59,141 nt of DNA, from positions 1-59,141 of the IMG/VR virus record IMGVR_UViG_3300031851_000029; one strand, written 5' to 3'. Positions 3,876 to 56,561 of this stretch are shown piece by piece (position 1 is the first letter of the stretch; every line of letters starts with the position of its first letter). Both the position numbers and the translations under genes were made by a program. Origin of the DNA: a virus. The notes under the pieces were generated by a model. It was not told where the DNA came from, did no database searches, and worked only from the letters and a program-made list of their open reading frames with translations.

Positions 3876-3914
3876 CTATAACTCCTGAAAAGTTTATGAG
3901 CAGATAACCTGAAG

Positions 3915-6417: not shown

Positions 6418-6426
6418 TTACAAATC

Positions 6427-7698
6427 CTAAATTGCTAAGTCTAGTCTTTGAAACTTAATTTCTAGAGTTCCCAACTTTGCATATTCTTGTTTATCCACAC
6501 TGTAACTCATGGAGTCTAAAGTTAAACGTTCCGAGCTCTGAAGAGAACCTGAAAAACTTTTTCTTATGTAAACATGATCAAACATTTCCTCAGCAGTGCC
6601 ACGACCATGAATCGTAGATGTAATTCTAGCAGAAGAAGTTATTCGTGCATGAAGAGCCCTAAGTGAAACTTTGCTAATCACGCTATCTGTATTTTTTGAA
6701 AAATATTGATTCATAATCTGAATTATTTCTCTTCTAACAATATTTTGCGCTTCTATAGCTAACTTTTCTTTTGTATGAACTGTCAAGATAAAATCGAACT
6801 TAACTTCTACTCCAGGCATTGCTATTATTCTCAATCCTGCAGTTTGCAAACTAGATATTTTTTCTTGAACGGAGCCAACCATGTTCGTATTTGATTCTTT
6901 ATCAGTTCCAAAAACAAAAACAGCTGCAGTTCCGATTCCATAATAATTCGGAATTGTAGAAACGCTGCGAACTCCAGGAACAGTTAAGGCTCTCATGGCT
7001 ATTGCTGTTTCATTCGAAGAAGCTAAAGCAGTGTAATGGCTTGCAATCCTAAACCTTAAACTTTGATCATCTTCTAAATCTCTTCCATTTAGGATAGACC
7101 TTCTATTTTTACACAATAGTGTTTTTAGGTTAGATTGAGAATATCCAGTAAACGAATGAGAAAGCAAAACATTCTCTGCTACATTCATCGTTCTTCCAGC
7201 AGTCACAGCTTCAATTCCACAGTAAACTATACTGCCGCCAGCAGGAAGCGTATAAGCGCCCTTGGTCTTATAAGTAACTCTTTGCCCTGAAGCAATCCTA
7301 GAAGACGATTCTAAGGCTTCTCCTGCACTGACCACAGTGCCAGCAGGAATAGTAATGTCGCTTCCAGAATTAATATCTCCAAAAGTTCCAGAAGAAACAT
7401 AAAAGGCGAAATTCATTTCTATTGCATCACTGTTGGCAAACTGAACCTGAAGCCTACTTACTCCTCGATTTTCTCCAAGCGCATCTAAAGCTTTACCTTT
7501 AGCGCTTCCAATTTGTATGGCTTCAATAGCTTTCTCTGATCTTGCAGCGACAAGTCTATGCTCTGCAGTAGTTGCGTCAAGCAAACTCCTAGCTACACTA
7601 TCTGAAGCCCAGTGATTGACACCTGCTTTTTCTTTTAACTTGTTTTTTGTTCTGTCTACTACCTTGCTAAAGGGCTCTAAACTTGGTTTGATAGCCAT
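6427..7698 (-). CDS. Baseplate J-like wedge protein (T4 gp6 / Mu gp47 superfamily)
   Basis: The 423-residue protein has the usual length and order of the baseplate_J family. The N-terminus is helical with S-V-A-R-S-L-L-D-A. The central region has a G-T-V-V-S-A-G motif near residue 120. The family core N-E-T-A-I-A-M-R-A-L-T-V-P-G-V-R-S-V is followed by a Gly-rich strand ending V-F-V-F-G. These proteins form the wedge ring that opens when the tail contracts. The start ATG at 7698 has GAGG 9 bases upstream. The next gene upstream encodes the gp25-like wedge partner, the normal pairing for a contractile tail. Confidence 0.88.
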   Translation of the reverse strand: MAIKPSLEPFSKVVDRTKNKLKEKAGVNHWASDSVARSLLDATTAEHRLVAARSEKAIEAIQIGSAKGKALDALGENRGVSRLQVQFANSDAIEMNFAFYVSSGTFGDINSGSDITIPAGTVVSAGEALESSSRIASGQRVTYKTKGAYTLPAGGSIVYCGIEAVTAGRTMNVAENVLLSHSFTGYSQSNLKTLLCKNRRSILNGRDLEDDQSLRFRIASHYTALASSNETAIAMRALTVPGVRSVSTIPNYYGIGTAAVFVFGTDKESNTNMVGSVQEKISSLQTAGLRIIAMPGVEVKFDFILTVHTKEKLAIEAQNIVRREIIQIMNQYFSKNTDSVISKVSLRALHARITSSARITSTIHGRGTAEEMFDHVYIRKSFSGSLQSSERLTLDSMSYSVDKQEYAKLGTLEIKFQRLDLAI

Positions 7699-18000: not shown

Positions 18001-18564
18001 AGTTGGCCTACGTTGCATTTGAGCACCAAAAGTATCTATAGTTCTCTTAATGCTGCCACCCGTAGATGTTTCAAACGATTTAGTTGCCCATTCATTTCTA
18101 TATAGCCAATTTGAAGAGTATGGAAAATAGTTAAACCATCTCAAGTCCAAATCTAGAACCCAGGTGCCAGGACTTCCTTTAAAGTTTTGAATAGTCAAAT
18201 TTGTTAAAGTGAAAGCCATATTCTGGTAGCGTGGCCACGTAGGACATATACTGTCTCTCAAGTATGCATTTTGTACGTAACAAAAAGGGCTTTCCCTGAA
18301 TTGGCATATGAGCCTGTGCATATGTAAAAATAGATCTGGAGTAAAAACTATTCTTACCGATACCTGAACAACACCATGCCCAGAAGGTATTTTTGTAGAA
18401 ACTTTAGTACGTAAAGTTTTCCACTGCCACATCATGTCTTCTTTTCTAATAGAAATATTAGTAGGTGGAATTAAAAGATCTACATCGTTAATTTGAAATA
18501 TAACTTCAGTTGCATCTCTTTCCGAGTCTACAGTAGACGAGACTATTGATTCTTTTGTTGGCAT
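9034..18564 (-). CDS. Giant baseplate hub protein with M23 peptidoglycan endopeptidase
   Basis: This 3176-residue protein starts at ATG 18564 in a TGATG overlap. Residues 1-165 are a beta-rich, Trp/Phe-rich hub-like domain. Residues about 446-657 are an M23 (LytM-type) metallopeptidase with the expected residues: H470 and D474 (S-H-K-G-V-D), H587 (F-L-H-L-D), and H640/H642 (P-H-L-H-Y-E-V). Residues about 1985-2150 and 2835-2885 resemble tail hub or late-control-D-like sequence (G-N-A-R-I-R-P-W-D-V, then D-M-A-G-P-V-E-V). Hydrophobic glycine/alanine segments lie near 1490-1510, 2235-2255 and in the last 250 residues. The family role is to cap the tube and digest cell wall at injection. A fusion this large is unusual. 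Domain borders are approximate. Confidence 0.82.
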   Translation of the reverse strand: MPTKESIVSSTVDSERDATEVIFQINDVDLLIPPTNISIRKEDMMWQWKTLRTKVSTKIPSGHGVVQVSVRIVFTPDLFLHMHRLICQFRESPFCYVQNAYLRDSICPTWPRYQNMAFTLTNLTIQNFKGSPGTWVLDLDLRWFNYFPYSSNWLYRNEWATKSFETSTGGSIKRTIDTFGAQMQRRPTFVGEIADTPAEIRTYDVVSERTLNIVGGRTFEDMLLTHSGTTFDLAARPSVMSRAAAVVPNLSNIYIRYSNYLQQKNLYECFDVDAADIMGGFAGEWIRYTSGRFPEGFTDDEAPGLENYLIVDALHGPRTLKTHRNEIIDQVMKHTLGIDFVWTEYTSYQVDPRIIQMRVDRREEAVTPERQKLHDAARTISEVARQSRAGTASVSQGSTSNPEVDFSYVEAWDHNSATETSQRVTDRSGTDFTTPGIANEAEYVFHPVVDSKNVSGDFGYRVGTSKSNSHKGVDITGGIGTPIYAPISGTLTVRSIQPVNVLAPPPSWNYDGRYLGYDYLLDAFAVNAQGTSADEFDGKSTARKQLALDYAKQQYGITSYGGNQLRLEGSVEGDDGTLIEYSFNFLHLDNFGEAFGGIVDNARIQGTSRAATGNGFTRVTVERGDIIGYVGNTGTSTNPHLHYEVYVNGSIIDPELALHLQQAEDGTFQYAGNHPRYINMLPAESADPGYDDAEVCEEEVDEESLTGIPDPAIVTSPPAASSGTTLTDEEKEEINNYFMDMYRDGWVPYEDTTEATNILKRTVNYSFLLQNSNFVPGIQPDYNMPVTQSMYNGRSSVGFQEHGRDSIFAVKSPDNLVMTNVVGSLTHIVANIPILGHEFPTHQHLGSMEPSYVFEFSTSADNSRNDNLSEEGALLEYMRQKLQSNARKFRAIPDGHAVATRTFITRLLGTYKVNDFVIPEESAQEFLKKRTVIHRTSTNTIEGYAGMSSMVFELSETNPYNTEALDFAGPSKEPLDKVREAILKCILSLNLTGEGVSNLLLNQISDRYYEQDDIAALLEEHELTPEDFGYENIESIKSLAMIDTDRIIHTRFMAGTQSTADRKAIVTESGDGAFWQQMIASGHVTGQSQTELAPSGSYGGGWSGPTVYVGDRFIDEDGAGQGGGSIDRIYESGDSSGESDFYILSTNSILSTIDARSEGSVFGTSEAHGIDPSVSVIPTVVNLGSFSNVVDTGTDKFIVDTTDFYNIHPQLEARLSGDGADNMTMAKLQGLYYTVYNTLRSARLSLREDTLPNSLPRQEVMQRLFNMPEEYVAGRQWTGYVTYVEAFLTEAIANNAGYDSYRSLASTLGLTMDAKDAAMGGLADRIVSDMSIELSDDDRGYIVHVAAGMAGDDVEGFMGTIKGVAGEAWEGSIDGGMLLLSGDGIHGNQDNANSTLALYREQVKNIRKNYMSEVISINQNIEAGIFDIFTPTLAASLVADWNSALYMTRVPTALEFDYFNDWFFSPVYLSNSPMTSRWVEAMSTAANYSGVAMGATATVLTIVAIAGWLLVPDPTDAALTGAAGGAWSAFATAGSISGQMATIGIAGLAGGGVGATVEMVDGDEIIQGESPTEDSYIGQTQAGIVPDPDVASIGTIAGETAKLQELRKILKEVADIVISDEGLIVSLGLDNIEVPSFSDLVDEYTGMPAYPDLDLPNHPYYTTRFNYAVSPDFYMWNAAEDASLEVKDAIYDEVFAKTSTVVHSAYHHHKRMQREGLEPNSDGGLGIFNHSSDVTQRISRIVSHPEASDEVDLMRSDATYEWAGGTNSEDAAAGRVYGKPVGPNNSSAWVSTGPTGNPFYGSAKGEGQEAQLANYQADSQAAIGVLVENAAAEHQYSAGTTTKGGGTAGAKALTREAFILAATEDESQAPAGTTSSLKTELGESIIDNPPPLSGNDGNTLNISGWAGERENYEELVTKMDSISAMMGSREGYMGNVVTEETAQATADIVVDTRLGAFNEFDNFYKPENLQMLAASSASDVISNKLSVRRAYPTFKLFFVEEDEYESRMLNMDDFYSFNGVKEFTFYSTRKNPGDTAQITLQNINGTLDGTKRNVTVDLDYFNQKEIERQGLDTDPSITTESDDHMHNSGEEQPFGAIVLRPGLNVQLRVGYSNDPNMLEVLINGRIVDLSWNSNGDLCNIVVQSFGTELTQKIKGIEGNDWSTDWHDKIYYTTHQLLGAMMMQPEVAHFGRWEYGTLRQIGEDKNADLDFYPYHKEGFQGSWPVVNSLLDTMTAHPIMTGIGALIGSVVMIRFAGARLAAGQAAKGSAAVSKPFSVSRLIGAPIAATLSGISRIATRGVGVNAATRVGTFFRTVRSGGGVKAGVMHGSRGMSVGRPLGASIDDIAANADEILTFINAPAASVLKGRSLARAQAVQQLVLEGGQAGKALVPLITSRTSGPALRAAVTSAQTNMLTARAVWWPGFGNTPSWGKLLSSPNPLKHIGAITVGNVLIKAPSAVLRMAIPMAIGAAGLDILLGFMKSGYGSLVGSYKKDMARVRARLKLSPADDNLFPPNPASYMTLGFWQRKGVWEKTTLWTRQFAAGIAATFTGTTITTIRDWWKKAFEMPDPHMLEKRVRPTACRYKLVNQTIFDTFEEMSLRHPGWIYGARPYGNEFRYTMFFGLPSQRYWSKPGSRDFITRINKLHSYIVSMIEQDEIDVSVMEAQLKEAYGSEESERMSDEAWAALADIGLRESQTGPNAPTPPVLVRGGTEHKNMLKQAALTKLIPEYLSGMEQRFVPFRRYHILSSDQDIVSNGIVSSETSVVNNVLVSYLKMDSETGSVTNTVQSLDMQASSSIPDYMLNMATVQYPNCTGYGMAVRYGQGSLMTGLKSMYKGEIMILGNARIRPWDVCILMDDYNDMAGPVEVESVIHMFSHETGFLTEIKPNALVYANEISSWPVLEGVKLFAMAYQSLNSDSKTIASRLDNDIGATRLVGGSSAVVDRFTDENMSADDIRNIEHFRERYAATFGTDNPIDEFRNVLRESDLGQATGIDMIAPRFGTTTTSGLAAVFGSAALVFGGARTLSPWLSGGKRLMGFLGGAAGAGAGGTIVWNNRKHLANSAAWMVGMNLLFSKAMEEETVNVIPLLKNGKPIVAGLTLKSPAEMFSSILGAVTNSAEDTINGITTLNEEYSRYREHSWAAFDELHQGRSGFIDKMAHRVSFFNDWKATLPDGPR

Positions 18565-42344: not shown

Positions 42345-43648
42345 TCCCTTCCTTTACTTTTCATTGTATGACCAGCTGGTAATAGATCATTATCAACTGT
42401 ATATTTTGGATTGCTAGGCTTGCCTTCCTTAGCTAAAGTTAAAAATGCATTAACTCTAGCCATGGCCCACCCTCTTTTTATATAAATATTAGACTTTGAT
42501 TTTGGAAATGATTTCATACCTCTATCATAAACAGTCGTCAATGTATTAAATTCAATTTTATTGCTCTCTGCACAATTAGAATTGTGCTTTGCAGCTTTTT
42601 TCTGTAAGGACTGCAACACGCTAAGCGAATCATCACTTACAGAGCTTTTTACATCATTATCGTAAGTAAGCTTAATTTTGATTTCTTCCTTACCAGACTT
42701 AGTAATTATCTCTGCCTCTCCTGAAGAGTGCAGAGTCTTCATTGCTTGTTCTGAAATGTCTAACATATGATCGTATTCTTTGCTTTCTATATCTTTGACA
42801 TCTTCTAAAGAAGCACCAATATTCGTATTATCTTTAATAGAATACATAGAATCTGTCAAATAAACAGTATGCTTGTCAACTTTAATTGTTGAAAGATCTT
42901 GTATCTGAACAGAATCAGAAAGTTCCATAGATAAGACTTGAGACAAATCATCTGCTGGCATATTGACTACAGATCCTTCAAGAACTTCAAATTTGCCAGT
43001 AACGAATACACATAAATCGTTATCATAAATGTTCCCATGCCTATGCTCACACATATCGCCTAAAGCCCAATCGTTTAAACAAACAGAGCAAACGTGCCTG
43101 TCTGTTGTTGAGCCTGCAGAAAAAGTAATATACCTGCCGTCAAGGAATTTTTCAATAGCATCTTGCTCTGAAATTCTAGCAGTAACCCTCATTCTTCCCA
43201 ATCCAGGCCAAGACTTTCTAGTTAAAAGGCCATATTTTTTCATAGCCTTATAGATTCTTTCTGGATCGTCAGCGTCAAAGGCTGACTGAACATTCATATA
43301 GTCGTTAACGTTATCAAAAAAGCCAATAGCTTCTTCAGAAGTGTCATCCCAGTAGCCACTTACAAATCTTCCAATTGGTTCATTTTGCTCATCATGGTTT
43401 CGGATAATTGGTTTGGGATACGGATTTAACAAGCTCTGAATTCCAGCTTGCTGACCAGCCACTGTATAGATTCTGTTGTTAATTCTTCTTCCAGAATGAC
43501 TTAGGTCGTAAGTAACATACAAGCCTTTTTTGTCGTCAGCTCTGCTAAATAAAGAATCAATTACACCTATCTTGTCTTTTCGTGACAAAGTGGCGTAAGA
43601 AGGGTCTGGGTTTATTTTAATAAAATCAACTAGTTTTAGTTTACTCAT
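42341..43648 (-). CDS. Prohead maturation protease-like protein with zinc-finger-like insert
   Basis: This 435-residue protein is coupled to the portal gene by a 4-base ATGA overlap. The N-terminal 185 residues resemble prohead serine proteases: P-K-P-I-I-R-N-H-D-E-Q-N-E-P-I-G-R-F gives the candidate catalytic H85, and Y-I-T-F-S-A-G-S gives the candidate S177. Directly after comes a Cys/His cluster, C187-x2-C190 then C200-x-H202-x-H204, likely a zinc knuckle. The C-terminal 200 residues are charged and helical and may act as internal scaffold. The enzyme would cut scaffold and capsid during maturation. Confidence 0.7.
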   Translation of the reverse strand: MSKLKLVDFIKINPDPSYATLSRKDKIGVIDSLFSRADDKKGLYVTYDLSHSGRRINNRIYTVAGQQAGIQSLLNPYPKPIIRNHDEQNEPIGRFVSGYWDDTSEEAIGFFDNVNDYMNVQSAFDADDPERIYKAMKKYGLLTRKSWPGLGRMRVTARISEQDAIEKFLDGRYITFSAGSTTDRHVCSVCLNDWALGDMCEHRHGNIYDNDLCVFVTGKFEVLEGSVVNMPADDLSQVLSMELSDSVQIQDLSTIKVDKHTVYLTDSMYSIKDNTNIGASLEDVKDIESKEYDHMLDISEQAMKTLHSSGEAEIITKSGKEEIKIKLTYDNDVKSSVSDDSLSVLQSLQKKAAKHNSNCAESNKIEFNTLTTVYDRGMKSFPKSKSNIYIKRGWAMARVNAFLTLAKEGKPSNPKYTVDNDLLPAGHTMKSKGRE

Positions 43649-45546
43649 ACTTGCCTCTGGGCATCAAATCGCGCAGTAGAATTAGGCGGAATTTCATTCA
43701 AGTCTATACTATATACATTTATACTACTATCCAGCAACCTTATACAAGTATCGCTATCCATTTTGGCATTATCAACACCAATCAATCTGTTTAGTTCTCT
43801 TTTTGAATCTTTTATTTTTGCAGATACTATAACACCGTAATTAAAAGCTTTGCAAGCATACACTGTTGTTATTGCATCTATTCTTATTTTAAGATTATTA
43901 AATATAGCAATATCGCTGACGTTAGAGTTAGCGACTATGTCCTGTCTTGAAGAGATTAAAGAATTGATTTGATTGTATTCAAATTTATAGTCTTGAATGA
44001 TTTTCTTTTTAATATCTAGCAATTCATCTGCCGATATATTTGAGTCAGCGAGACCATCAAATAGCTTATCTTCTATAAGTGATATAGAAGAGGAGTATTC
44101 ATCTGAGAGTAATCTATCTAGTGTCGGTGCAGTTTTCTTTCCAAACTGATTTTCCGGCGCAGATTGATTTTCTGACTCATTTGTAGAAAATAAAGAACCC
44201 TTCAACAATGCTAAAGGTTTCTCGAAAAGCTCAAAGTAGGTTTCTCCCATTTCATTACTAGACATTGGGGCTTCACCTATTCTCTTTCTAGCTTCGCTTA
44301 AAGTGATCAATTTGTTTGCAAAGAGCTGTATCGTTTGATTTTCAATTTTAATTTTTTGCTCTTTGTCTACTGAACCAAATTTAATGTTGACCCTTTTCAT
44401 AGGGTCAAATGCATCAAATTCGTAGCCACCTTCAAGAAGCATTTCGTTAAATACTGCATGCTCTACAAATATTTTAATTATCTGTTGAAGGGCTTCTACG
44501 TCTTGAATAGCACTTTTAGAAAGTACGTTTGCTGTCGCTCTGTTTGCCGTGTCACCTTCGCCCATATCTACAGACGAGACCCCAAGTCCTGCAAACACTC
44601 TCTTCTTAAAATAATCTAAGTAGCCTTCAATCCTAAGGGCTCTACCCTCAGAACCAACTGATTTTATACTGTGTCTATGATCTGAAACGTAGACACCTCC
44701 TGCAGGCATATAATCGATTGCCTCTCTTACAACTTCAGTTTCTTTCTTGCCTTCTGGACCATATCGTTCTGGAAATTCATCAGAACCTACCGTGTAGTGG
44801 AATAGCGGAAAAAGATTTGACTCTATGAGCTCTTCTACATTTTCTTCTAATCTTCTAAGCAGTGCAATATCATCTAGCACAGGAAGCAACTCGGGCGTAC
44901 CCATTGCAAAGCCTGCTTTCTTGTTATCATAAAAGTGTATAAGATCGTGTGGAAAGAACTCTTTAGTTTCACCTGTTGGCGTCTGCTGTAGGACTTTCTT
45001 CACTTCACCGTTTTTAGAACTTTTAAAATATAAGGTTTCAAATGGCAGGATAAAGTAACCAGCTACAGGATCAACAGTCCTTCCAGTAGTTAAGGTTCTC
45101 ACTTTTCCTCTAGAGCCTCGCACATCTCTAGCTTTTACCCACATGCAGTTTGAGAATCGAACTAAATCATAAGCAGTTTCTGCCAGCAGTATTGAAAATG
45201 GTTTGCCTGTAGCAATCTCCATTTCTGCAACTCTAGTCTTTATGTATTTTACGTAATCTTCGTTTAAGCCTACGATTTCAAAACCAGAAACAAGGAATCT
45301 ATTAGTTTTCTTTTTAATTGCTCTAAAAATATAACCGTCTGTATCTTGTGCAATAGATATTTCTTCTAAATCATACTCTGGCTTATACCAGCTACCCCTG
45401 TGCCTTTCAGTGTAATGAAGCCCGCGATTAGCAACCTTTATTACTCCAGGCTTAGATGGAAAAAGTGTTCTAGAATCTTCTAAAGATTTAGATACTTTTT
45501 TATCTTCTATAACGCCTAAGGCTAATTTAAATAAATCTGATCTCAT
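43645..45546 (-). CDS. Portal protein
   Basis: This 633-residue protein follows its upstream gene in a TAATG overlap with AGGA ahead. It has the phage portal pattern: a wing with I-A-Q-D-T-D-G-Y-I-F-R-A-I-K-K-K, V-A-G-Y-F-I-L-P-F-E-T-L-Y-F, then D-L-I-H-F-Y-D-N-K. The stem/crown core holds F-A-G-L-G-V-S-S-V-D-M-G-E-G-D-T-A-N-R. The C-terminal region has S-E-A-R-K-R-I-G-E-A-P, typical of the crown. It forms the 12-mer DNA entry ring and docks the terminase encoded 4 kb upstream. Confidence 0.9.
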   Translation of the reverse strand: MRSDLFKLALGVIEDKKVSKSLEDSRTLFPSKPGVIKVANRGLHYTERHRGSWYKPEYDLEEISIAQDTDGYIFRAIKKKTNRFLVSGFEIVGLNEDYVKYIKTRVAEMEIATGKPFSILLAETAYDLVRFSNCMWVKARDVRGSRGKVRTLTTGRTVDPVAGYFILPFETLYFKSSKNGEVKKVLQQTPTGETKEFFPHDLIHFYDNKKAGFAMGTPELLPVLDDIALLRRLEENVEELIESNLFPLFHYTVGSDEFPERYGPEGKKETEVVREAIDYMPAGGVYVSDHRHSIKSVGSEGRALRIEGYLDYFKKRVFAGLGVSSVDMGEGDTANRATANVLSKSAIQDVEALQQIIKIFVEHAVFNEMLLEGGYEFDAFDPMKRVNIKFGSVDKEQKIKIENQTIQLFANKLITLSEARKRIGEAPMSSNEMGETYFELFEKPLALLKGSLFSTNESENQSAPENQFGKKTAPTLDRLLSDEYSSSISLIEDKLFDGLADSNISADELLDIKKKIIQDYKFEYNQINSLISSRQDIVANSNVSDIAIFNNLKIRIDAITTVYACKAFNYGVIVSAKIKDSKRELNRLIGVDNAKMDSDTCIRLLDSSINVYSIDLNEIPPNSTARFDAQRQV

Positions 45547-47312
45547 TATGAATTTCCTGTTATTCTTGAAATTCTATTCCTGATTCTTGACCTGTCTTCT
45601 TCAGTAAGGTCACCAGTGCAACCTGGTAAAGGAATCAATCTTTCTTGATATAAGTTTGAAACTTGAATCGCATCCCCCTTGGAAGTTAATGAAAGCTTTT
45701 CATTAGGATATACTATACTAATAGCTTGCATAACTTTTTCAGGGTTCTCTTTCAAGTCATCACAATTTTTTAATCCGCCTTTTCCTAGGGCTATAACAAT
45801 CTGAATTAATTTAATTAAGTCTGTAATTAGCATTATTATACCCATAGCCTCTATATTCAAAGCAAGTTTTCCACCAAAAAGACTATTGAGGCTCTTCACT
45901 ACAAAAAGTATTTGACTAAAGAAGTCAGCAATCATTTGTTTAAAATCTTGCAATGCAAGTATGCTTTTTTGAAAAGTTTTTATATCTCCAATAGCTGGGA
46001 CTTTATTGGTTCCGTCTTCCCTGCTTTTTCTTCTTTTATCCATAAAGGATTGGAATGTATCGCTAACTCCAACTGTAAAGCCGGTAGGAATAGTACCCGG
46101 CATAGCATTTTCTGAAGCAGCGCCAGAGCTGTTTCTGTCAAAAGATAAGAATCCACTAGTTGCATCAGATACCGCTTGCCCTGCAGAGTTGGTAACGTCT
46201 CTTGCGAGCGAGAAACCCGCGTTTGCAGTCTCTATGGGGTCGCCACTTTCGGTCCACCTTTCACTTCCTTCAAGGTCTCCACCCATGAAGCCGCCAGGCA
46301 TATTTGCTGCAGTTGTTGCAGTTATGCCTGGAGTGGGAGATACGGAAAGGTTGGGACCACTGCCACCAACCATGTCGCCTAAAGCCGAACCAGCAGCCAT
46401 CATAGTGTCTTGCAATTCATCTGCAGCATCAATTAGCTCTTGAACTGTTCTCATGGCTCCAATTGCGCAATCAATTGGTGCCATAACCAATTGCATCACT
46501 TGCTGTATTAGTGCAGCTATTGCATCTACGATCCATTTGATAATGGGTCCGAGAATCATAGTCCAATCAATACTAATACTGAGTGCCATCATTATGTATT
46601 TCTTTATTAGCATGCTCAATGCTAATAGAAGCATAATTAAATCTGGTATACAAATCAGACTAAAGCCGTCAAAAAAATCACAAAGGTCGACTAGCATGTC
46701 CATTGGGTCGAGCATTTTCCCAATGGCATCCATTATCTCTTCGATATCTTTCAAAAAGTCTTCAAAGCCTAACAATAAATTCAAAGGCTGAATTTGCCAA
46801 CTGAACTCTGTTTTAAGATCGCAATCAAAGCAATCATCAAAATAGTCTAGGATTTCGTCTGCTGATAATATCTCTGAAGATACACCCATTTCGTCTAGTG
46901 ACTTTTGAAGCATACTTTTATATGGTTGGCTCTTTTCAATAACAGTGCCACCCAAAGAAACATTAAGTACTGAGTTCTTGCTAGGGTCTCCTAAGTTTAT
47001 ATCAACTTCTGCATCACAAAAACTTTCTTCACCTGAGCCTTGAGAGGCGCCTCTACCTGCAGGGGGTACGGATACGCTCTTTTTGCTTTTCGCCGCCTGT
47101 TCACTTGCTTTTTGTGCTAAGAAATCGTTTGCTTTTCCAAAACGATTTAAAGACACTTCTGTACTGTCCACAGCCATTGAGCAAGTTTGAACAGAATGCC
47201 ATGTTGCTGCAGTAGCACCCTCTCTGGTGCCAGCTCGTTTTGCTGCTTGTTCATACCTTTGGCAAATAAGCGAAAGGTAAACATACCTGTAATGTTCGTC
47301 GCTACTACTCAT
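45546..47312 (-). CDS. Hydrophobic virion protein, possible membrane-active component
   Basis: The 588-residue product starts at ATG 47312, one base pair past the stop of the previous gene. Residues about 216-287 form a long hydrophobic region with several potential transmembrane helices (I-P-D-L-I-M-L-L-L-A-L-S-M-L-I, then I-I-K-W-I-V-D-A-I-A-A-L-I). A second hydrophobic cluster lies near residues 460-520. A flexible Gly/Ser/Pro region separates them. Cysteines near 157-165 (D-D-C-F-D-C-D) may bind metal. In the portal neighbourhood, a protein like this could be a virion component that forms a channel in the cell membrane. I recognise no family. Confidence 0.6.
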   Translation of the reverse strand: MSSSDEHYRYVYLSLICQRYEQAAKRAGTREGATAATWHSVQTCSMAVDSTEVSLNRFGKANDFLAQKASEQAAKSKKSVSVPPAGRGASQGSGEESFCDAEVDINLGDPSKNSVLNVSLGGTVIEKSQPYKSMLQKSLDEMGVSSEILSADEILDYFDDCFDCDLKTEFSWQIQPLNLLLGFEDFLKDIEEIMDAIGKMLDPMDMLVDLCDFFDGFSLICIPDLIMLLLALSMLIKKYIMMALSISIDWTMILGPIIKWIVDAIAALIQQVMQLVMAPIDCAIGAMRTVQELIDAADELQDTMMAAGSALGDMVGGSGPNLSVSPTPGITATTAANMPGGFMGGDLEGSERWTESGDPIETANAGFSLARDVTNSAGQAVSDATSGFLSFDRNSSGAASENAMPGTIPTGFTVGVSDTFQSFMDKRRKSREDGTNKVPAIGDIKTFQKSILALQDFKQMIADFFSQILFVVKSLNSLFGGKLALNIEAMGIIMLITDLIKLIQIVIALGKGGLKNCDDLKENPEKVMQAISIVYPNEKLSLTSKGDAIQVSNLYQERLIPLPGCTGDLTEEDRSRIRNRISRITGNS

Positions 47313-48155: not shown

Positions 48156-48598
48156 TAGGCACCAACTTTTCTGAGGAAGTAAGAAACTCTTAACTGCATG
48201 TTCTCTCTTATTTGAGCACTTTCGTTACCAGGGCAATAAAGTCTAACCCATATCGGATGATTTGTAAAAGTATCTGCAGCTTCTGTAGTTCCTATATCTG
48301 GTATAGATATACTTTCTCCAGACTTGACTAAGTCCCACTCTGATTCAGTTGGTCTTCTTTTCCCATACATCAATTTAATCCCCCAACCAGTCAATCCGAA
48401 CTCACCTGCATCATTGTAGCCACCAATCATTTCTGGAGTTATAACAATATCTGTATAGTAAACTGAAGGATCTCTGTTTCTTAAAAAGAAAACCTGTTCG
48501 TGAGAATTACCAATATGGCCGTTATGAAATGATCTTAGTGGATCTTCATCAAAAGCTTCATAGTTTTCATTATAAAATATTAATCTTTCACTAGCCAT
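48155..48598 (-). CDS. Small beta-rich virion protein
   Basis: This 147-residue protein starts at ATG 48598 (TAATG overlap). It looks like a compact beta sandwich: S-V-Y-Y-T-D-I-V-I-T-P, then W-G-I-K-L-M-Y-G-K-R-R-P-T-E-S-E-W, then P-I-W-V-R-L-Y-C-P-G-N. Strand pairs separated by short Gly/Pro turns suit a virion decoration or connector protein. No family recognised. Confidence 0.6.
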   Translation of the reverse strand: MASERLIFYNENYEAFDEDPLRSFHNGHIGNSHEQVFFLRNRDPSVYYTDIVITPEMIGGYNDAGEFGLTGWGIKLMYGKRRPTESEWDLVKSGESISIPDIGTTEAADTFTNHPIWVRLYCPGNESAQIRENMQLRVSYFLRKVGA

Positions 48599-49407
48599 TA
48601 GAATCTACTACCTCTACTTTGATTGAACCCTCTACTGTGGCTCTTGCCTTCTCTTTGTCCACCAAACATTACTCCTGAAAGCCCTGCCCCACCCATCATT
48701 GCATTTCTTGCTTTCATTGTTTGTAATCCTGTGCCTGCACTATTTAACACGGAAGACATTACTCCGCGAGCGCCATCTGCATTATCGAACTTTTTAGTCA
48801 TTGTCAAACCACCACTTGGACTAGCTTGATTGTTCAAAGCAGCTCTTTTTAATCCTCTGGCAGCAAAGCCACCAGCTGCACCAACTGCAAAACCTTGTCC
48901 AAATTCACCACCAGTAGCATATGAAGTTGTACCGCCAATAAGCCCCATACCCAAAGCTGATCCAATCTGACCCATCCCAGATTGTATTCCCATAGCAGAC
49001 TTGGAATGTTCAGCAGCAGACCACGAGGATCCGTGTACTGCTCCTTCAGGAGGAGGAGTAACAGGCTTATTAGCTGCTACGCCTGGAGCCAATTTGGGGC
49101 CCACTGATGGTGGAGGAGAGTTTTTTGGGATTACTCCACTAGCGACATCTCTTTTGTGATGAAAGCTTGCATTCGCCTGCATTGTTTCAAAGAAGTCAGC
49201 CATTCTGTTTCCTGGACGAGATGACGCAGGACCCATGGTTTGAACTTCTACTGCTGGCGATTTTTTTGCCTCTGGCATTACGGTTTTACTTCTAGGTGCT
49301 CTAGTAGGTCCGCTTGGCACCCAAAGACCACTACTGCCCATCTTGAAGCCTGCCGTAGACACACCTTCACCAATAACCTGGCCTACTAAGTTTGTAGCTG
49401 CTCTCAT
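48598..49407 (-). CDS. Glycine-rich low-complexity virion protein
   Basis: The 269-residue product starts at ATG 49407 behind AGGAG, just after TerL. The N-terminal half is Pro/Ser/Lys-rich and likely disordered. Residues about 140-190 form a Gly/Ala zipper segment (G-S-A-L-G-M-G-L-I-G-G, then G-F-A-V-G-A-A-G-G-F-A) that could insert in a membrane. The C-terminus is Arg/Ser/Gly-rich. A similar protein lies on the other side of TerL. Such proteins are often packaged and ejected. This is inferred from composition only. Confidence 0.6.
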   Translation of the reverse strand: MRAATNLVGQVIGEGVSTAGFKMGSSGLWVPSGPTRAPRSKTVMPEAKKSPAVEVQTMGPASSRPGNRMADFFETMQANASFHHKRDVASGVIPKNSPPPSVGPKLAPGVAANKPVTPPPEGAVHGSSWSAAEHSKSAMGIQSGMGQIGSALGMGLIGGTTSYATGGEFGQGFAVGAAGGFAARGLKRAALNNQASPSGGLTMTKKFDNADGARGVMSSVLNSAGTGLQTMKARNAMMGGAGLSGVMFGGQREGKSHSRGFNQSRGSRF

Positions 49408-49416: not shown

Positions 49417-51603
49417 CTATTTCTTTTTCCAGCTTCTGCTTCCTCTTTTGCTTCTTCGGGGTCCCGAACGCTGAGGGGAACTAAACTGGTTTGATTGATT
49501 TTGAATTGATTCTAAAACACTAGGTTCTGTTTTCTTTTTATGAAATATATCACCTCTAGAGCGTTTTTCTCTAGTTTTTTCTTGTGTTCTATATTTTTGT
49601 TTAACTGATCTATCAGAATCAATACTTCCTTCGCCTCTCATTATTCTCATGATTTCCAAAGCTCCTGGAAACCCAGCTTTCTTAAGCGCTCTAGCGTTTT
49701 GATCTACATCATCGTCAGGAGAACTATACCAGTCGCTTTTCTTGCGTCTTTCAACTAAGCCTGGTTTTGAGTAAGGAAGGTTATTCTTACTATAGATGGA
49801 CTCTTCTAGAGAGAGTCCAGCTAAAGCTAACATCATTGCATCTAATCTGTGATCGCCTATGCTTTTCTTTTCCATTCCATAGACAGGCTTATTTGTTGTA
49901 GCATGCCTTCTGAGAACGATATAGTTTAGAAATTGTTTTGCTAAAACTTCGTCCCTGTGTGGGAAGTGGAATCTATTGTCTTCAAGAACTCGTACAGCAT
50001 TTTCTACTAGGTAATGCTTTCCCGACTTAACTATTGTCTGGCCAGTAAGAGGGTCTTTAAGATTTATGTTCTTGGAAAAGTTGAAAGATACTAGACGATC
50101 TACTATTTTTGAAGTTTCTTCGTCCATGGCAGACTTATGACTTTTCCCTCTTTTTCTATGAGATAATAATTTTAAGTCTTCTATAATTGTGTGACCGTAG
50201 CCTTCGTCAGCGTAGATGTAGTCTGGCTTCCACTTAAAGTTTAATCTAATGACTTCCTCTACCCATCTTTTTGCAGAATACTCAGAAGCTCCGACATTGT
50301 GAGCTTCAAGTGCTACCCACTTGCCAACAGAAGCAGAGAATCCAATTACAAAGAATTCTGTTCCTGCGTTTTTGTTCCAGTCGATTCCAATACACTTAAT
50401 CATATTGGCAGGGTCTGGTATTCCTAAATTAGTCCTAAGATAGGAGTAATCCATCGTAGCTGCGTATTCATAATCTGCTCTTGCATTATGAACCCAGTCC
50501 ATTTTGAATACACCGCTCCCACCTTCAATAAACTGAGCCATATACTCAGCTACAAAACCTTCTGAAGTACTTTCTGCTTCTAGCTCTTCTTTGATCTCGC
50601 TCCAATGCGGAAGCACTGTTGATGGATAATAGTCTTCCTTATAGTCTGCTCTTTCAAGACACCATTCGTGAAACTTTCCTTTCTTTCCGATAGGGGTAGA
50701 AGTAGCAATCATTATTGTGTCAGATCTAGTAAGCAAAATAGGTGTAACTACTTTCTCTAATATCTCTTCTGGAATCATATCCATTTCGTCAAGATATATG
50801 ATGTCAGCGCTCTGACCACGTATCGTACCACCACCAGAACCATCAGTTTTCACACCCATTCCAGAAACAAAGCCTGAAATCTTAGCTTTAGTATTATCGC
50901 TAAGCTTAAACTCCATTCTAAAAAATGGACTCTTTACATAGAGTCCATTAGCTGAAGACGTTGACACATAAGAGCATAGCTCTTCGTTTCTTTTTAAAAG
51001 CTTTTCCATTTCGTTAAAAATGTTTGTTAACTGTGCTTGGTAGGGAGTGACTACCATTATTTCTGGTCCAGCAAAAAGTTCTTTGCCAGCAGAATCCTTA
51101 CCTCTTCTAAGCCTTAAGTTATATATGTAATAAATTAGTTTGAGTGCAATAATGAAGGTCTTTCCAGATCGACGACCTTCCCTAACCACGGTTCTTTTAG
51201 AAGAACATCTAAGTTGCTCTTTCTGATAATCTCTAATATGCCAGTTTGGGTCATCGTCGCTAAAGCCAAACATTAACTCTGCCCAGGCAACTGGGTCTAT
51301 CGTAGACAAGAGTATCTTTCTAGCTCGATCTAGCGGAATATCTGACTGCATTGCTATTTCTTTTGCTTTTGCAGCAGAACCTCTAGGGAGTCCTCTTTTG
51401 ATAAAACCACAATTGACTTTAAATTCTCCATACTTGTCTACTTGTCTTAGTTGACAATTGATACAAGTTCTATGTGCGTCTGTATTCAAGTTATACTTTT
51501 CAGCAAACTCTTCTACTAATTCTTCTGATATTGAGGCAGAAGGATCTTGATGCGTATACCCGTATTCGTTAGTTCTGTAGAGTTTTTTAAGTCTTTTATC
51601 CAT
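49417..51603 (-). CDS. terL: Terminase large subunit
   Basis: This 728-residue protein starts at ATG 51603 behind AAGGATG. The ATPase half has Walker A R-E-G-R-R-S-G-K-T (G143-T149) and Walker B I-I-Y-L-D-E-M-D (D271, E272). A helix before the ATPase holds C47/C50 and C65, an unusual cysteine cluster. The RNase-H-like nuclease half has acidic residues at D407 (C-I-G-I-D-W), D465/E466 (Y-A-D-E-G-Y-G-H) and D583/D587 (I-G-D-H-R-L-D-A). The C-terminus is Arg/Lys-rich. It drives DNA into the head through the portal and cuts concatemers. Glycine-rich genes lie on both sides. Confidence 0.95.
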   Translation of the reverse strand: MDKRLKKLYRTNEYGYTHQDPSASISEELVEEFAEKYNLNTDAHRTCINCQLRQVDKYGEFKVNCGFIKRGLPRGSAAKAKEIAMQSDIPLDRARKILLSTIDPVAWAELMFGFSDDDPNWHIRDYQKEQLRCSSKRTVVREGRRSGKTFIIALKLIYYIYNLRLRRGKDSAGKELFAGPEIMVVTPYQAQLTNIFNEMEKLLKRNEELCSYVSTSSANGLYVKSPFFRMEFKLSDNTKAKISGFVSGMGVKTDGSGGGTIRGQSADIIYLDEMDMIPEEILEKVVTPILLTRSDTIMIATSTPIGKKGKFHEWCLERADYKEDYYPSTVLPHWSEIKEELEAESTSEGFVAEYMAQFIEGGSGVFKMDWVHNARADYEYAATMDYSYLRTNLGIPDPANMIKCIGIDWNKNAGTEFFVIGFSASVGKWVALEAHNVGASEYSAKRWVEEVIRLNFKWKPDYIYADEGYGHTIIEDLKLLSHRKRGKSHKSAMDEETSKIVDRLVSFNFSKNINLKDPLTGQTIVKSGKHYLVENAVRVLEDNRFHFPHRDEVLAKQFLNYIVLRRHATTNKPVYGMEKKSIGDHRLDAMMLALAGLSLEESIYSKNNLPYSKPGLVERRKKSDWYSSPDDDVDQNARALKKAGFPGALEIMRIMRGEGSIDSDRSVKQKYRTQEKTREKRSRGDIFHKKKTEPSVLESIQNQSNQFSSPQRSGPRRSKRGSRSWKKK

Positions 51604-52424
51604 TACATCCTTCTATAGTTTGAAAAGTAGTCTCTAGGCTGGTGCATGTAAGTTGCTTCCATACCCATAGCACTTCTTGCGTTAAGGTGTGAGTTTTGCA
51701 TTGCAGACACAGCTCTTTGTCTTTGCGTAAAAGCGTTTCCAGTCATAAACGAAGCAGTACTACCGGCAGTATCAATCCTTCTTTTCATTCTTTCTCTTTG
51801 GTAGCCAGCTTTTAAATAATTAACACCATTTTTAACTACAGAGTTTCCTACCATGCCTAAACCAATCGCCGCTGCAGTAATCACTGGGTGCCTTCCCATT
51901 TTTGCTCCAACAATAGCTCCAAAAAAAGTTCCTGGAATACCTGCAATTTCTCCACCCATTTGTGCACCCATGAAGCCCATACCCATTGTACTAAAGCCCT
52001 TAATCATGCCCGGTGGCTTAACTTTACTAATGTTTGGAAGAGTAGACTTTGGAAACAATACAGCGTTTGATGCTGCCATTACGGCAACATCTGTGTAGGC
52101 TGCATTGATTGCACCACCCATCCCCCCTTCTTTTGCACCAAGGTACACGTTATAGGCGCTACCAGCTACGCCGAGACCAGCCATCCCGTAGCCACCCAAC
52201 CTTCCTGCAGGTAGCTTGTGGCCAGTTACTTCTGGCATCTTCACTCTGTTAGCAACCCCACCCTCAATGGAATTTCTAAAAATATGAGGACCCCAAGATT
52301 CGTATCTGACTCCGGGTCCAGCAGGTGCAAGACCAGCTCTTGCTATCTCTTCAGGGGATAATGGCCAGAAGCCAGCGCTTAATCGAGCTCCTTGCTCTAC
52401 ATAATTAAATAAGGAATCTAACAT
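51603..52424 (-). CDS. Glycine-zipper virion protein
   Basis: This is a 273-residue protein with AGGATG before ATG 52424. Residues about 75-190 are a series of Gly/Ala/Met hydrophobic segments (G-Y-G-M-A-G-L-G-V-A-G-S-A, then G-M-G-F-M-G-A-Q-M-G-G). The polar C-terminus holds F-T-Q-R-Q-R-A-V-S-A-M-Q-N-S-H-L-N-A-R-S, likely a helix. The composition resembles the N-terminal parts of the two giant tail-module proteins, so all may share a route into the virion or the cell membrane. No catalytic motif was seen. Confidence 0.6.
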   Translation of the reverse strand: MLDSLFNYVEQGARLSAGFWPLSPEEIARAGLAPAGPGVRYESWGPHIFRNSIEGGVANRVKMPEVTGHKLPAGRLGGYGMAGLGVAGSAYNVYLGAKEGGMGGAINAAYTDVAVMAASNAVLFPKSTLPNISKVKPPGMIKGFSTMGMGFMGAQMGGEIAGIPGTFFGAIVGAKMGRHPVITAAAIGLGMVGNSVVKNGVNYLKAGYQRERMKRRIDTAGSTASFMTGNAFTQRQRAVSAMQNSHLNARSAMGMEATYMHQPRDYFSNYRRM

Positions 52425-52426
52425 TT

Positions 52427-55400
52427 CTACATCCTGTGGTGGTTGATTGGGCTATTGAACATTTGATGATTTTGATGGCGTTGAAGTTGGGCCATCTCCT
52501 CTCTTCTTCTACGATGATTTGACTGATACATTGAGTAAGCAGCTGGAGTTCTTTTGTTCCAGATTGAAGTACTTGTACCAAGCGTATCAAGAGTTAAGGC
52601 TTTATCTAAAGAGCCATAACCCATTCTATGTGATAACTTGTACTTATGTCTACCTCCTTTGGTAGCCATAAGCTCTCCTCCTTCGAAAAGTAACTGATTC
52701 ATATAATCTTTATGTGGAGTGTTTGACCAGTTAAATAACTTTGGAGCCTTATAGTCTGCATCAAAACCCATTTCGGAGTATCGTTCACCTATAGACGCCG
52801 CTTCAGTAGCCATAGCATTGTTGTAAAAGCCTTGCTCTTGAGCTGACCACATTAATGCTCTAGTAGACATCAGGTTTGCATTTTTGGCAACTGAGGAAGG
52901 GTTGACTAATGTGTTGAAGGTTATTGTGCTGCCAGAAGCAGCTACTACATCTGCATATGCTTTGTACATAGGCATGCCCCACATATTTCTTTCAGAACCT
53001 TGAGCTAATGCTGCAGTTCTAGAAAAAATCTGTGAATTGTACATTTCTTTACTACCCTTCTTTCGGAAAGGAAGGTAAGAAGCGCTACCTCTTCTTAGGA
53101 GTTCTAAGTTCAAGTTCACGCCATCTGCAAAGACGAAACCAACTGAACGTCCATACGTTTGGTTTTTTGGGTCAATTAACAATTCAATGTTATCTCCCCC
53201 ATTAAGCATTGACCTTAAAGCAGCAGTTGCATTGTCAGCATAAGGCATTGCAGATCTACCTGCGTGAGCGGTTTCTGGAGCATCAATACCAGCCATACGA
53301 ATTTTTATTGATTCATTTAGGCCAAAGAAGTCAGAGAGTGCATTTGTCCCTTTTTGTTTAAGTACAATTGTATCTGCATCTTCTGCGGAGAGCTTGTAGT
53401 TGTTAATATTTACTTTTAACAAGTTACCTTTAGCCATACCTTCATAGCCAGCCAAATCTACATAATTCGTACCTTCTGCTTGCTGGTATCTTGTATAGTG
53501 AACGCTGCTGCTGCGCACCATGTCTCTGATACTCGCGCCGACAGATCGGGCATCGCCTCCTGGAGCTAATCTAAACTTCTTCCAATACTGTCCAATAGAA
53601 CTATTTTCGTCGAAGTGGTTTACGTTATAAACCTCACGAATATATTTCTCTCGCTCAGCTAGCATATCTTGGTGTTCAAAAATAAACGTAGATGCTATTG
53701 GCCCTCTATATGGAGAACCAAAGTCAGTCATACTTTTTCTTCTTTGTGCATTTAGACCATTATCTAAGAAGCCAGATTCGCCTTTATGTGGCATTTCCAT
53801 GCTTGAGAATTCAGCTTGACCTTCAAGCCAACGCTCGTAGTTCATAGTTCTAAAAGTCTCTGGACCTTGCCTTTGTCTTCTTACGTCATGCTTATGCCCA
53901 GCAAGTGCACCTAATAGTGTTACACCACCTGCAAACATGCCTGCGTATCTGAATACTCTTCCAGCTTTCACATCCATTGCTTTCCAGCCAGCCCACTTGG
54001 CTTTATCTCCACCAACTATTCTTCCGCCTGATTCAGCTGCTGCTTCCATATCGCTAAACATTTTAGCTTTTGATTGACCGCTTACTGTGTTTGCAACCTT
54101 AGAAAAATGGTCGTCCAAATATTCGCTTCCTGAATTCACAAGAGAGGTTAAAGCATTTGTGAACTCGCGCGAATTTACTGGATTGTGGGTTCTGCTGTTA
54201 GCATCTAAGAACCCTTTTCTTACAAAATCTTCTTCCATGTCAGATGCGACTTTTGCCACATCTACCAAAGCATATTTGCCTTGAGATTTCACATGCTCTA
54301 CTACTTCACCTATATTGGTGAAAGGAGTTCTCATCGGTATTGCAATGGGAACACTTCTTGGAACGCCTTGCGGATCTATTCTTTTTACTTGACCAAGCCT
54401 GTAGCCATTACTTTGGTGGGTTACACCTTCTTTAGTAATATCTAGCCAAGCTCTAGAAAATCTTTTTTGTAATTCTGCTTTTTGAGTTACCTTTCCTATT
54501 TCTTCTGCTGCTGAAGCATATCTTAAAGCAGCATGGAACGCTCCCTTACCTTCTTGCGCTTGCTGTAGTAGTCTAAGTCCTTCTTTGCTTCCTGATGCTA
54601 CTTCTCTAAGTGCTGAAGTCTGTCTAAGGGATTGTTTAAGTACGAGGTTCTCGGTAACGCCTGCATCCATAAAGGCTGCGTGTACCTCTTTACTTGTTAG
54701 CGCTTTCCACGCTTCCTCTTTTGTTTTAGCTATTGAGTAGCCGTAGAGCCTTGCCTGAACATCCATTCCCAGAGAGAAAGGACTTTTGCCTTTCATTATT
54801 CCCAAGCCTTGGGAATGCGATTGTTGCGCTTTTACAACATCGATAATGTCTCTTACGTCACCTTTACCAGTGTTTTTGAGGTAGGCTTCAAATACTCCAG
54901 TCCAGTCCCCTGTAATCAGCGCAGCTGCTCGCGCGCGGTTGACTTCTTTACCAGTTACTGCAAGCACATCGCTAGTACTTAAAGAGGTCTCTGCTATTAC
55001 GTTTCTGAAGCCGGAAACTTTTTTTATTTTTTGGATATATTCCGACTGGCTGATTTTCTGCCCAAAGAATTCGTCTCTTGCTCCTTGTTCGAGCGCAGCG
55101 AGTTTCGCGCCGATTTGTTTTGATTCGAAATTTGCGTTAGCGATCCATATTGCGTTTCCTTTTGCTTTTCTAAGGAATGCACCCTCTGGGTCGAATATTT
55201 GATCAATACTAATGTTTTGTGCTGTAGCTACCCTTACGTCTGATCCAGCCTTCTTCATGCGTTGCTTGATCGCTTCGTCACTCAGCGCTTGGTCTCTGAC
55301 TTTGCCTTCTAAATCTGCAAGCCAAGGGTACTTGCCTTCCTGAAGCCACTTGTGAATAATAGGCTCTCGTGCCGAGAGTTCGCTTTGCAGGTCTGCAAGC

Positions 55401-55756
55401 GACATGCTACGGATTTCTTTTACTGTAAGCCCTCTAGTTCTCCCTTCTTCCGAACCCTTTGCCATGAGGACTTGAGCGACCAGTGAGTCCTTCCAGGTTG
55501 CCTCTCCCCTCGCTATAAGCTGCTGTAGGCCTGGGTGTGCTTGATGCACATCGCTAGCTGATGTAGCAAGCCTAAGTATGTCTTGATCTCTCTTACCTGG
55601 CTTCACTACAGTCAGGTTGGGTTCTATGACAAACTGATTTATCTCTTTGTTGCTGGTATTATATAAAGCAATTTCATGGATACCTACACCCCTACCGAGA
55701 CCCATGGTCTCGATATCCATAATTACGGCTTGCTTATATAATTGCTTCCAGTCCAA
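52427..55756 (-). CDS. DnaQ-like exonuclease / staphylococcal-nuclease fusion protein
   Basis: The 1109-residue protein appears to use TTG 55756 as start (AAGG upstream); the next ATG would cut through the first catalytic strand. The N-terminal DEDDh-type domain has D14 and E16 (V-I-M-D-I-E-T-M-G), N-A-N-F-E ending at E211 (Asp replaced by Glu), and H359/D364 (V-H-A-A-F-M-D-A). A hydrophobic segment lies near residue 610. The C-terminal SNase-like domain has D795, R820, D825 and E828 (R-M-A-G-I-D-A-P-E-T) and R870 (Y-G-R). The two nuclease types in one virion-operon protein would degrade or trim DNA or RNA, perhaps of the host. Long spacers separate the exonuclease motifs, so its activity is less certain than that of the SNase part. 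Confidence 0.8.
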   Translation of the reverse strand: MDWKQLYKQAVIMDIETMGLGRGVGIHEIALYNTSNKEINQFVIEPNLTVVKPGKRDQDILRLATSASDVHQAHPGLQQLIARGEATWKDSLVAQVLMAKGSEEGRTRGLTVKEIRSMSLADLQSELSAREPIIHKWLQEGKYPWLADLEGKVRDQALSDEAIKQRMKKAGSDVRVATAQNISIDQIFDPEGAFLRKAKGNAIWIANANFESKQIGAKLAALEQGARDEFFGQKISQSEYIQKIKKVSGFRNVIAETSLSTSDVLAVTGKEVNRARAAALITGDWTGVFEAYLKNTGKGDVRDIIDVVKAQQSHSQGLGIMKGKSPFSLGMDVQARLYGYSIAKTKEEAWKALTSKEVHAAFMDAGVTENLVLKQSLRQTSALREVASGSKEGLRLLQQAQEGKGAFHAALRYASAAEEIGKVTQKAELQKRFSRAWLDITKEGVTHQSNGYRLGQVKRIDPQGVPRSVPIAIPMRTPFTNIGEVVEHVKSQGKYALVDVAKVASDMEEDFVRKGFLDANSRTHNPVNSREFTNALTSLVNSGSEYLDDHFSKVANTVSGQSKAKMFSDMEAAAESGGRIVGGDKAKWAGWKAMDVKAGRVFRYAGMFAGGVTLLGALAGHKHDVRRQRQGPETFRTMNYERWLEGQAEFSSMEMPHKGESGFLDNGLNAQRRKSMTDFGSPYRGPIASTFIFEHQDMLAEREKYIREVYNVNHFDENSSIGQYWKKFRLAPGGDARSVGASIRDMVRSSSVHYTRYQQAEGTNYVDLAGYEGMAKGNLLKVNINNYKLSAEDADTIVLKQKGTNALSDFFGLNESIKIRMAGIDAPETAHAGRSAMPYADNATAALRSMLNGGDNIELLIDPKNQTYGRSVGFVFADGVNLNLELLRRGSASYLPFRKKGSKEMYNSQIFSRTAALAQGSERNMWGMPMYKAYADVVAASGSTITFNTLVNPSSVAKNANLMSTRALMWSAQEQGFYNNAMATEAASIGERYSEMGFDADYKAPKLFNWSNTPHKDYMNQLLFEGGELMATKGGRHKYKLSHRMGYGSLDKALTLDTLGTSTSIWNKRTPAAYSMYQSNHRRRREEMAQLQRHQNHQMFNSPINHHRM

Positions 55757-55766: not shown

Positions 55767-56561
55767 TTAGTCTAACAATATCTCATCATCATCGTCTTGG
55801 TTGCCAGGAAGAGCTTTAGATTTATCAACCCCTTCCAACTCTGTCAGTGCCTCACGTAGTTTTTGAATTTCTGTCAAAATCTTACTCTCATTATTCCCAC
55901 CGCCAACTTTAAGCATCCAGTCGGCTTTAGATTTACGAGTTTCCATAAGTTTATCAAGCCACTTTTCTCTACGACGTTCTAGACGATCTAGCATATCAAC
56001 TGCTGGGTGCAGTTTTGCAGTTTCTGCTTTTTCTCCTGATTCGCTGAATCCTAAAACATCTACCCTCATGAAGTCTCTACCTTGTCCTGACTTGTCTCCA
56101 ACAGCCATTATCATTAAGGTTCTATTCTTATAGAGGTCAATAAGTGCTAGTTCATTAACTACTGACATTTCCACTGGATTAGCAGGGTCTACATTTAGGT
56201 GGGTAACGTACTCTATGATCTTCTGCTGCATGTAGAACTTTTCGAGGATACACTCTCGGCCTATTGGGTAATTGGCGTCGGGTCCATAGTCAAGCTTGTT
56301 ATCAGCGCCCCTCTCGGGGATAGGGCAGCGCTCTACAAAGGGACACTTCTTGGGGCCTAAGCACATCACTGGGGCTACTGCATGTAGCCCTGTCTGTATT
56401 CGGTTGATAGAGTTGGTTATCTTCTGCTGCTTTTCAGGTGCGAGAGAAGTGAAATACTCCATATATTCTGGTTCTACTTGCTGAATCTCAGCAATAGCCT
56501 GCTCTTGAGAACGTACTAAGTTTAAACCAATTGGCTCTAATTCTTTTTTGTCATCACTCAT
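55767..56561 (-). CDS. Four-cysteine protein, possible small terminase or packaging partner
   Basis: This 264-residue protein starts at ATG 56561 with only a weak GAG ribosome site. Residues 67-104 have C67, C73, C79 and C104 (C-L-G-P-K-K-C-P-F-V-E-R-C-P, then G-R-E-C-I), a spacing that could hold zinc or an iron-sulfur cluster. The C-terminal 90 residues are charged and helical (L-D-R-L-E-R-R-R-E-K-W-L-D-K-L), probably a coiled coil. Its place two genes upstream of TerL suggests a TerS-like DNA-recognition protein. No clear helix-turn-helix motif was found. Confidence 0.5.
   Translation of the reverse strand: MSDDKKELEPIGLNLVRSQEQAIAEIQQVEPEYMEYFTSLAPEKQQKITNSINRIQTGLHAVAPVMCLGPKKCPFVERCPIPERGADNKLDYGPDANYPIGRECILEKFYMQQKIIEYVTHLNVDPANPVEMSVVNELALIDLYKNRTLMIMAVGDKSGQGRDFMRVDVLGFSESGEKAETAKLHPAVDMLDRLERRREKWLDKLMETRKSKADWMLKVGGGNNESKILTEIQKLREALTELEGVDKSKALPGNQDDDDEILLD

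Follow-up and report, generated by a model that had tools for sequence, protein, structure and literature searches.

Within a 59,141-nucleotide stretch of viral DNA (IMG/VR record IMGVR_UViG_3300031851_000029, hereafter the window), we identify a gene predicted by sequence and structure modelling to encode one long phage protein with two different types of nuclease, located two places 5′ of the gene for the terminase large subunit (TerL). The gene (52427..55756, TTG start; minus strand, like every feature of it given below) is defined by ORF calling, Pfam and AF2 modelling and specifies 1109 amino acids in the order DEDDh exonuclease, middle region, hydrophobic segment, linker, staphylococcal nuclease (SNase) domain, helical C-terminus and conserved tail. 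A sequence-only reading had proposed both nucleases from individual residues (D14/E16, E211, H359–D364 and D795/R820/D825/E828/R870), and these numbers are exact in the 1109-residue protein. The same reading noted a hydrophobic segment between the nuclease halves, which we place at residues 598–622, and a position two genes 5′ of TerL among structural genes, which the annotated neighbourhood supports. It took the fusion for an isolated case; comparison of related loci instead shows it to be one variant of a modular protein family that is widespread and that, on sequence evidence, occupies a fixed slot between a gene of the 264-aa type and the Gly-rich gene preceding TerL.

The SNase domain is the part of the 1109-residue protein that sequence assigns with certainty. 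The domain covers residues 787–932 (52961..53398) and was delimited by Pfam, a PDB thermonuclease match and conservation: PF00565 aligns to residues 818–926 with E=1e-14 (55.3 bits against a cut-off of 21), and phmmer aligns residues 815–927 to S. aureus nuclease with E=6e-9. Residues D795, R820, D825, E828 and R870 follow the catalytic Asp-Arg-Asp-Glu-Arg order, and each is present in all members of a conservation set of 36 distinct complete sequences, homologues 26–67% identical to the window protein. The original SNase call thus stands on both the Pfam match and the catalytic residues. In the full-length AF2 model (pLDDT 75) the SNase region is confident and the stretch 585–688 is poor. SNases are usually secreted, Ca2+-dependent enzymes, and a Ca2+-type SNase is expected to have little activity in the cytoplasm.

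The N-terminal half is, on model and sequence evidence, a DEDDh fold with predicted 3′–5′ exonuclease activity. This domain (residues 1–388, 54593..55756), defined by AF2, Foldseek and motif conservation, contains Exo I (D14-x-E16, 55709..55717, 36/36 homologues), Exo II (N207-A-N-F-E211, 55124..55138), Exo III (H359-x4-D364, 54665..54682, 36/36) and a V-R-D-I-x-D element at residues 301–306 (54839..54856; D303 and D306 in 36/36) that resembles the invariant R-D element of T4 DexA, in which D156 and R158 are invariant and R155 is nearly so. Glu replaces the usual Asp at the end of Exo II in 35 of the 36 homologues, with Asp in one, and Glu also occupies this position in ME3_11 of Acinetobacter phage ME3. 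Because D14, E16, H359 and D364 are invariant down to 26% identity and E211 is kept in all homologues but one, the pattern lies far beyond chance motif matching. Loss of catalytic residues in close homologues had been named as one outcome that would overturn the sequence-only reading, and across both halves they are retained, E211 being the sole position below 36/36.

Sequence searches and structure contribute differently to this assignment. With the window protein alone, the DEDDh half had no Pfam or PDB sequence match, and its sole faint profile match, in PHROGs, was phrog_192 ‘DNA polymerase exonuclease subunit’ over residues 8–47 (E=0.013). Neither Pfam applied to 30 N-terminal halves nor a PDB profile search returned a convincing DnaQ match; the sole PDB profile hit, an iota-carbonic anhydrase, covers a helical stretch only and looks like an artefact. 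Profile–profile comparison with DexA, DnaQ and ME3_11 aligned over Exo I only (pairwise E=0.0044 against DexA), and the argument for an exonuclease therefore rests on structure and motif conservation. An AF2 model of residues 1–420 built from a 30-sequence alignment reached a mean pLDDT of 91 and a pTM of 0.91. Foldseek comparison of this model with the PDB gave no match below E 0.001, and the top 31 matches, each weak (E 0.1–0.9), were all DEDD-exonuclease proteins, including T4 DexA, the exonuclease domains of RB69 and T4 DNA polymerases and an arenavirus-type NP exonuclease; because the PDB holds many RB69 polymerase entries, the count of 31 overstates independence, and DexA and NP are the informative matches. 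The low TM-scores probably reflect large insertions between the motifs. Distant homologues from the same gene slot add profile matches to the DEDD superfamily: L256 passes the Pfam cut-offs (DNA_pol_B_exo1 1.5e-5, RNase_H_2 3.5e-5), L224 and L134 match at 7e-4 and 3e-3, and the distant group A7 has all five DEDDh residues with Asp in Exo II. The earlier proposal of a DnaQ-like N-terminus is upheld by the modelled fold and by the motifs kept in homologues. As a separate observation, the L053 homologue (3163–7014) carries an intein-like insert at the active site, directly after the Exo II Glu (NAPFE | CLGADTLV...LVVHN | SKQFG), and the L155 homologue has an intein (PF14890 2.9e-10) also in the DEDDh domain.

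Residues outside the two nucleases include elements that recur across the family. The middle region (389–597, 53966..54592) is modelled in the full-length prediction as helices and a beta hairpin, with no known domain and no Pfam match, and is followed by a Gly/Ala-rich hydrophobic helix (598–622, 53891..53965) located by hydropathy scan. Using a mean hydropathy of ≥1.0 over 19 residues as the criterion, we found a hydrophobic stretch in 33/36 homologues, mostly at the 598–622 position; the segment is weak in L021, L023 and L024. In the full-length model of the window protein it has low pLDDT. A linker at residues 655–690 (53687..53794) reads ...GLxxxGxxxxxRKxxTDFGSPYxGP, with D678–Y683 present in 36/36. 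Its family form comprises 40 residues (...EGLxHxGxAxxxRKxxTDFGSGYxG) and occurs in up to four copies in several slot proteins: the profile part around DFGS matches 2–4 times within L134, L138, L140, L235 and L243 (domain E down to 3e-11), with two copies in each of L134, L138 and L235 and four in L243. In relatives the linker is present in 2–4 repeats and usually precedes a cargo domain. Among named phages the motif gave one weak hit, a ‘tail fiber’ of Enterobacter phage EC151 (E=0.3), which we do not believe. The protein ends in a conserved tail (residues 1092–1109, 52430..52483; QRHQNHQMFNSPINHHRM) with R1108 in 34/36 and M1109 in 35/36 homologues. The pattern H-[HTYNQSMV]-x-[MYI] falls within the last 26 residues of 82/105 slot proteins, compared to 3.4% for shuffled sequences and 5.7% for other ORFs, a control that includes some redundant slot proteins; the pattern was written after the tails had been seen, and the comparison measures specificity and not the significance of a discovery.

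The slot lies among late virion genes for TerL, portal, head and sheath. Between the nuclease gene and TerL (49417..51603, minus strand; phrog_2 1.5e-31) there is always a Gly-rich hydrophobic protein of 273 aa (51603..52424, minus strand) that matches ME3_12 (2.8e-6) and gp009 of Bacillus phage KLEB27-3 (2.4e-9), and the portal protein is encoded at 43645..45546 (minus strand; phrog_9232 2.1e-50). A conserved 264-aa protein with no assigned function (55767..56561, minus strand) precedes the slot and matches ME3_9 (4.7e-16) and KLEB27-3 gp005 (1.6e-14). The 273-aa protein has a conserved end, RQRAVSAMQNSHLNARSAMGMEA, of which the ME3 and KLEB27-3 relatives keep LN-x-R-(A/S)-x-x-G-x-E. ME3_9 (L055 4012–5307) is annotated as an RNA (guanine-N1-)-methyltransferase yet is homologous to the 264-aa gene, and that annotation is doubtful. 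Elsewhere in the window, two proteins with hydrophobic stretches and no family match lie between TerL and portal (48598–49407 and 45546–47312) and are candidate internal head proteins, and a 3176-aa protein (9034–18564) with an endolysin/metallo-endopeptidase region near residues 620–665 is probably a tail-tip protein. There was no Rfam match anywhere in the window.

We used scans for the fusion and for TerL to follow the slot across other loci. A direct scan returned one full-length relative at 65–67% identity. A TerL scan returned 51 loci, and a homologue of the fusion is present in 45/45 whose sequence continues upstream beyond the 273-aa gene; the remaining six start at TerL or the 273-aa gene, or within one of these, and L043 and L051, contigs that were searched whole, carry the fusion at the other end. 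A chance or local assembly join is ruled out by these 45 loci, some of them near-identical. A scan of cellular genomes, limited to two peptide patterns, found only ordinary SNases. Three wider TerL scans added about 210 further loci; both border genes are present in 108, which represent 69 distinct arrangements.

Comparison of proteins in these slots demonstrates that enzymatic domains vary within a common framework. The usual constant parts are the DEDDh domain, the hydrophobic segment and the C-terminal tail (...IGHHRM). Motifs D-x-E, N/H-x-x-F-[DE] and H-x4-D occur in order in most slot proteins longer than 480 aa; this regular expression is permissive and single cases are no proof, and stronger evidence comes from Pfam, which matches L256 above cut-off and also L224 and L134, and from a group of 975–1415 aa proteins with internal DEDD motifs that are invariant in 8 aligned members. 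SNase domains are found in the window clade, L134, L243, L261 and L262. Several polypeptides combine enzymatic domains, as the window protein does with two: L138 (4951–7419) joins a DEDD domain (PF10108 1.1e-4, just under cut-off) to a protein kinase (Pkinase 1.3e-10, with HGDLHFKN and DFG), and L243 (2023–5856) joins an SNase (3.2e-14) to a kinase-like HGDLNFGN motif and, by motif only, a possible nucleotidyltransferase. HExxH motifs in L140 (4062–7097) and L136 (3515–5857) mark candidate peptidases, and a region in L140 and L235 (4082–6760) reads like a RecB-type PD-(D/E)XK nuclease by motif only; phmmer of the L140 region against the PDB found nothing. L155, whose TerL scored best in a comparison of wider loci, encodes a slot protein that aligns to profile positions 10–697 and 991–1079 and skips 697–991, and the SNase module is therefore absent as a unit. 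ME3_11 and L224 likewise have the exonuclease without an SNase. In KLEB27-3 the slot is occupied by gp006, which is 257 aa long, has no nuclease motif and ends ...RIGHHKMGNSKFQ (an IGHHKM tail), and immediately before TerL there is again a homologue of the 273-aa gene (2.4e-9).

Known proteins resemble the window protein in part. ME3_11 escaped an initial profile comparison with ME3, KLEB27-3 and MTATph1 and was revealed by fold search and synteny: among viral models, Foldseek matched the window exonuclease to this 529-aa ‘hypothetical’ protein (A0A172PZZ4) with E=1.2e-5 and probability 1.00. Like the window gene, ME3_11 is the second gene ahead of TerL and comes after the same conserved neighbour, and the protein has D-x-E, N-H-R-F-E and H-x4-D motifs, a hydrophobic segment near its C-terminus and a match to phrog_192 (4.7e-5). 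Unlike the window protein it lacks the SNase and the linker, and the SNase of ME3 is instead in the baseplate hub ME3_37. A0A6J5NQ80, a 1342-aa protein of an uncultured Caudovirales phage, is a full-length structural relative (E=3e-46) whose public name, ‘SNase-like, OB-fold’, covers the SNase only and leaves the exonuclease half unnamed. Of the single-domain enzymes with solved structures, T4 DexA (8ken, 8kel) has the closest fold; it shares D-x-E, H-x4-D and, in the interval from Exo II to Exo III, an R-D element with the window half, but is a single-domain protein of 227 aa with an Exo II ending in Asp. The baseplate hub protein of BtI1 has an N-terminal SNase (PMC2147016) and is similar in that a virion-type protein carries this domain, in a related superfamily of phages; it differs as a tail-hub protein with no exonuclease partner reported (PMC2147016). 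Iyer et al. 2017 (PMC5512222) described polyvalent phage proteins, whose genes neighbour those of the virion, whose enzymatic domains include kinases and HExxH peptidases, and for which packaging and injection are proposed; the main text of this founding paper does not mention SNase, DEDDh or DnaQ. Polyvalent and slot proteins are alike in being large, multidomain, located beside virion genes and variable in their enzymatic domains. Polyvalent-class domains are absent from the window protein and appear in its relatives, the kinase by Pfam and HExxH by motif only, and the slot family differs in its usual constant DEDDh domain, its own linker repeat, its conserved short tail and its fixed place before TerL.

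The SNase module itself has a varied distribution. Each of 12 records searched contains at most one SNase, which the window clade has in the slot protein, ME3 in the hub (KU935715 37999–44988) and Moorella phage MTATph1 in a 2.2-kaa tail-region protein annotated as endolysin (OR602862 37880–44557); KLEB27-3 has none. MTATph1 also has a gene annotated as DNA repair exonuclease between TerL and portal (OR602862 2677–3537). In a tree of this short domain, slot SNases stand apart from hub (ME3, MTATph1) and cellular SNases with 0.94 local support; transfer between slot and hub is thus unsupported, and independent gains are the more likely origin.

Two nuclease domains, conserved active sites, a fixed slot and exchange of cargo in relatives were all computed directly. 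Taken with the comparison above, they make it fairly probable that the gene encodes a polyvalent-type multidomain effector that is taken into the capsid as this assembles and is ejected along with the DNA, a reading in which virion location, ejection, activity and target are what we infer. The 3′–5′ exonuclease would be the older part, with other enzymes added between linker repeats so that the linker marks the insertion site of extra domains; the hydrophobic helix could cross or tether to a membrane during ejection, and the C-terminal tail ending -HHRM would probably serve assembly or loading. A requirement for Ca2+ may keep the SNase quiet in the producing cell, and the target would be host DNA, RNA or nucleic-acid defence signals. 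Sequence comparison is consistent with an ejected effector: the slot is fixed near portal and capsid genes in 45/45 clade loci with upstream DNA and also in distant phages, the active sites are invariant down to 26% identity, the cargo varies within one frame and the linker recurs inside several relatives; the published polyvalent proteins (PMC5512222) offer a precedent. Counting against it are the weak hydrophobic segment of L021, L023 and L024, the motif-level basis of the PD-(D/E)XK and nucleotidyltransferase calls and PDB Foldseek matches that all fall short of E 0.001. The main rival, which we consider unlikely, is a packaging-associated nuclease that acts alongside terminase and portal inside the infected cell, trimming or clearing DNA ends during packaging or head completion, with no injection. 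TerL and portal are nearby in all loci, no catalytic part of the slot is more widespread than the DEDDh domain, and in ME3 a ‘head closure’/endonuclease-like gene precedes ME3_11, each of which fits such a role, but kinase and HExxH inserts make no sense for DNA trimming and a Ca2+-type SNase should be little active in the cytoplasm. Between the two roles offered by the sequence-only reading, the comparative evidence favours a packaged nuclease that accompanies the DNA over a packaging trimmer, because the slot accepts interchangeable effector-type domains that a trimming enzyme would not need and in KLEB27-3 lacks both nucleases.

Somewhat less likely again is a capsid-internal structural or ejection-channel protein whose nucleases act mainly outside the cytoplasm, in the periplasm or at the cell surface, for example by cutting extracellular DNA at entry. 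The hydrophobic helix and the usual secretion of SNases agree with this explanation, as do the SNases of the ME3 baseplate hub, the MTATph1 tail-region protein and the BtI1 hub (PMC2147016); the DEDDh and kinase partners, however, are intracellular types, and hub and slot SNases do not group in the tree. A replication or nucleotide-salvage nuclease present in the virion operon by happenstance is very improbable: the close structural match T4 DexA carries annotations for replication and for breakdown of host DNA, but synteny with head genes is strict over very distant phages, and a soluble DNA enzyme needs neither a hydrophobic segment nor a conserved tail. Extending the effector reading, we tentatively consider a general phage cargo system, itself a possibility that we rate below even, in which a constant carrier formed by the hydrophobic helix and an -IGHHRM type tail loads any fused enzyme into the capsid and then into the cell, and enzymes are exchanged between linker repeats as in polymorphic toxins. 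If so, the tail would be a portable tag for capsid loading and delivery, and the enzyme-free gp006 of KLEB27-3, with its IGHHKM tail, would be the bare carrier.

Existing annotation names at most the SNase of this protein and usually nothing. Viewed as a family, these proteins define one fixed slot in many uncultured large-phage contigs, where gene position is enough to list candidate injected enzymes, the linker marking domain borders and the short tail testable as a loading signal. The slot family thereby turns what phages deliver besides DNA into a directly testable question.
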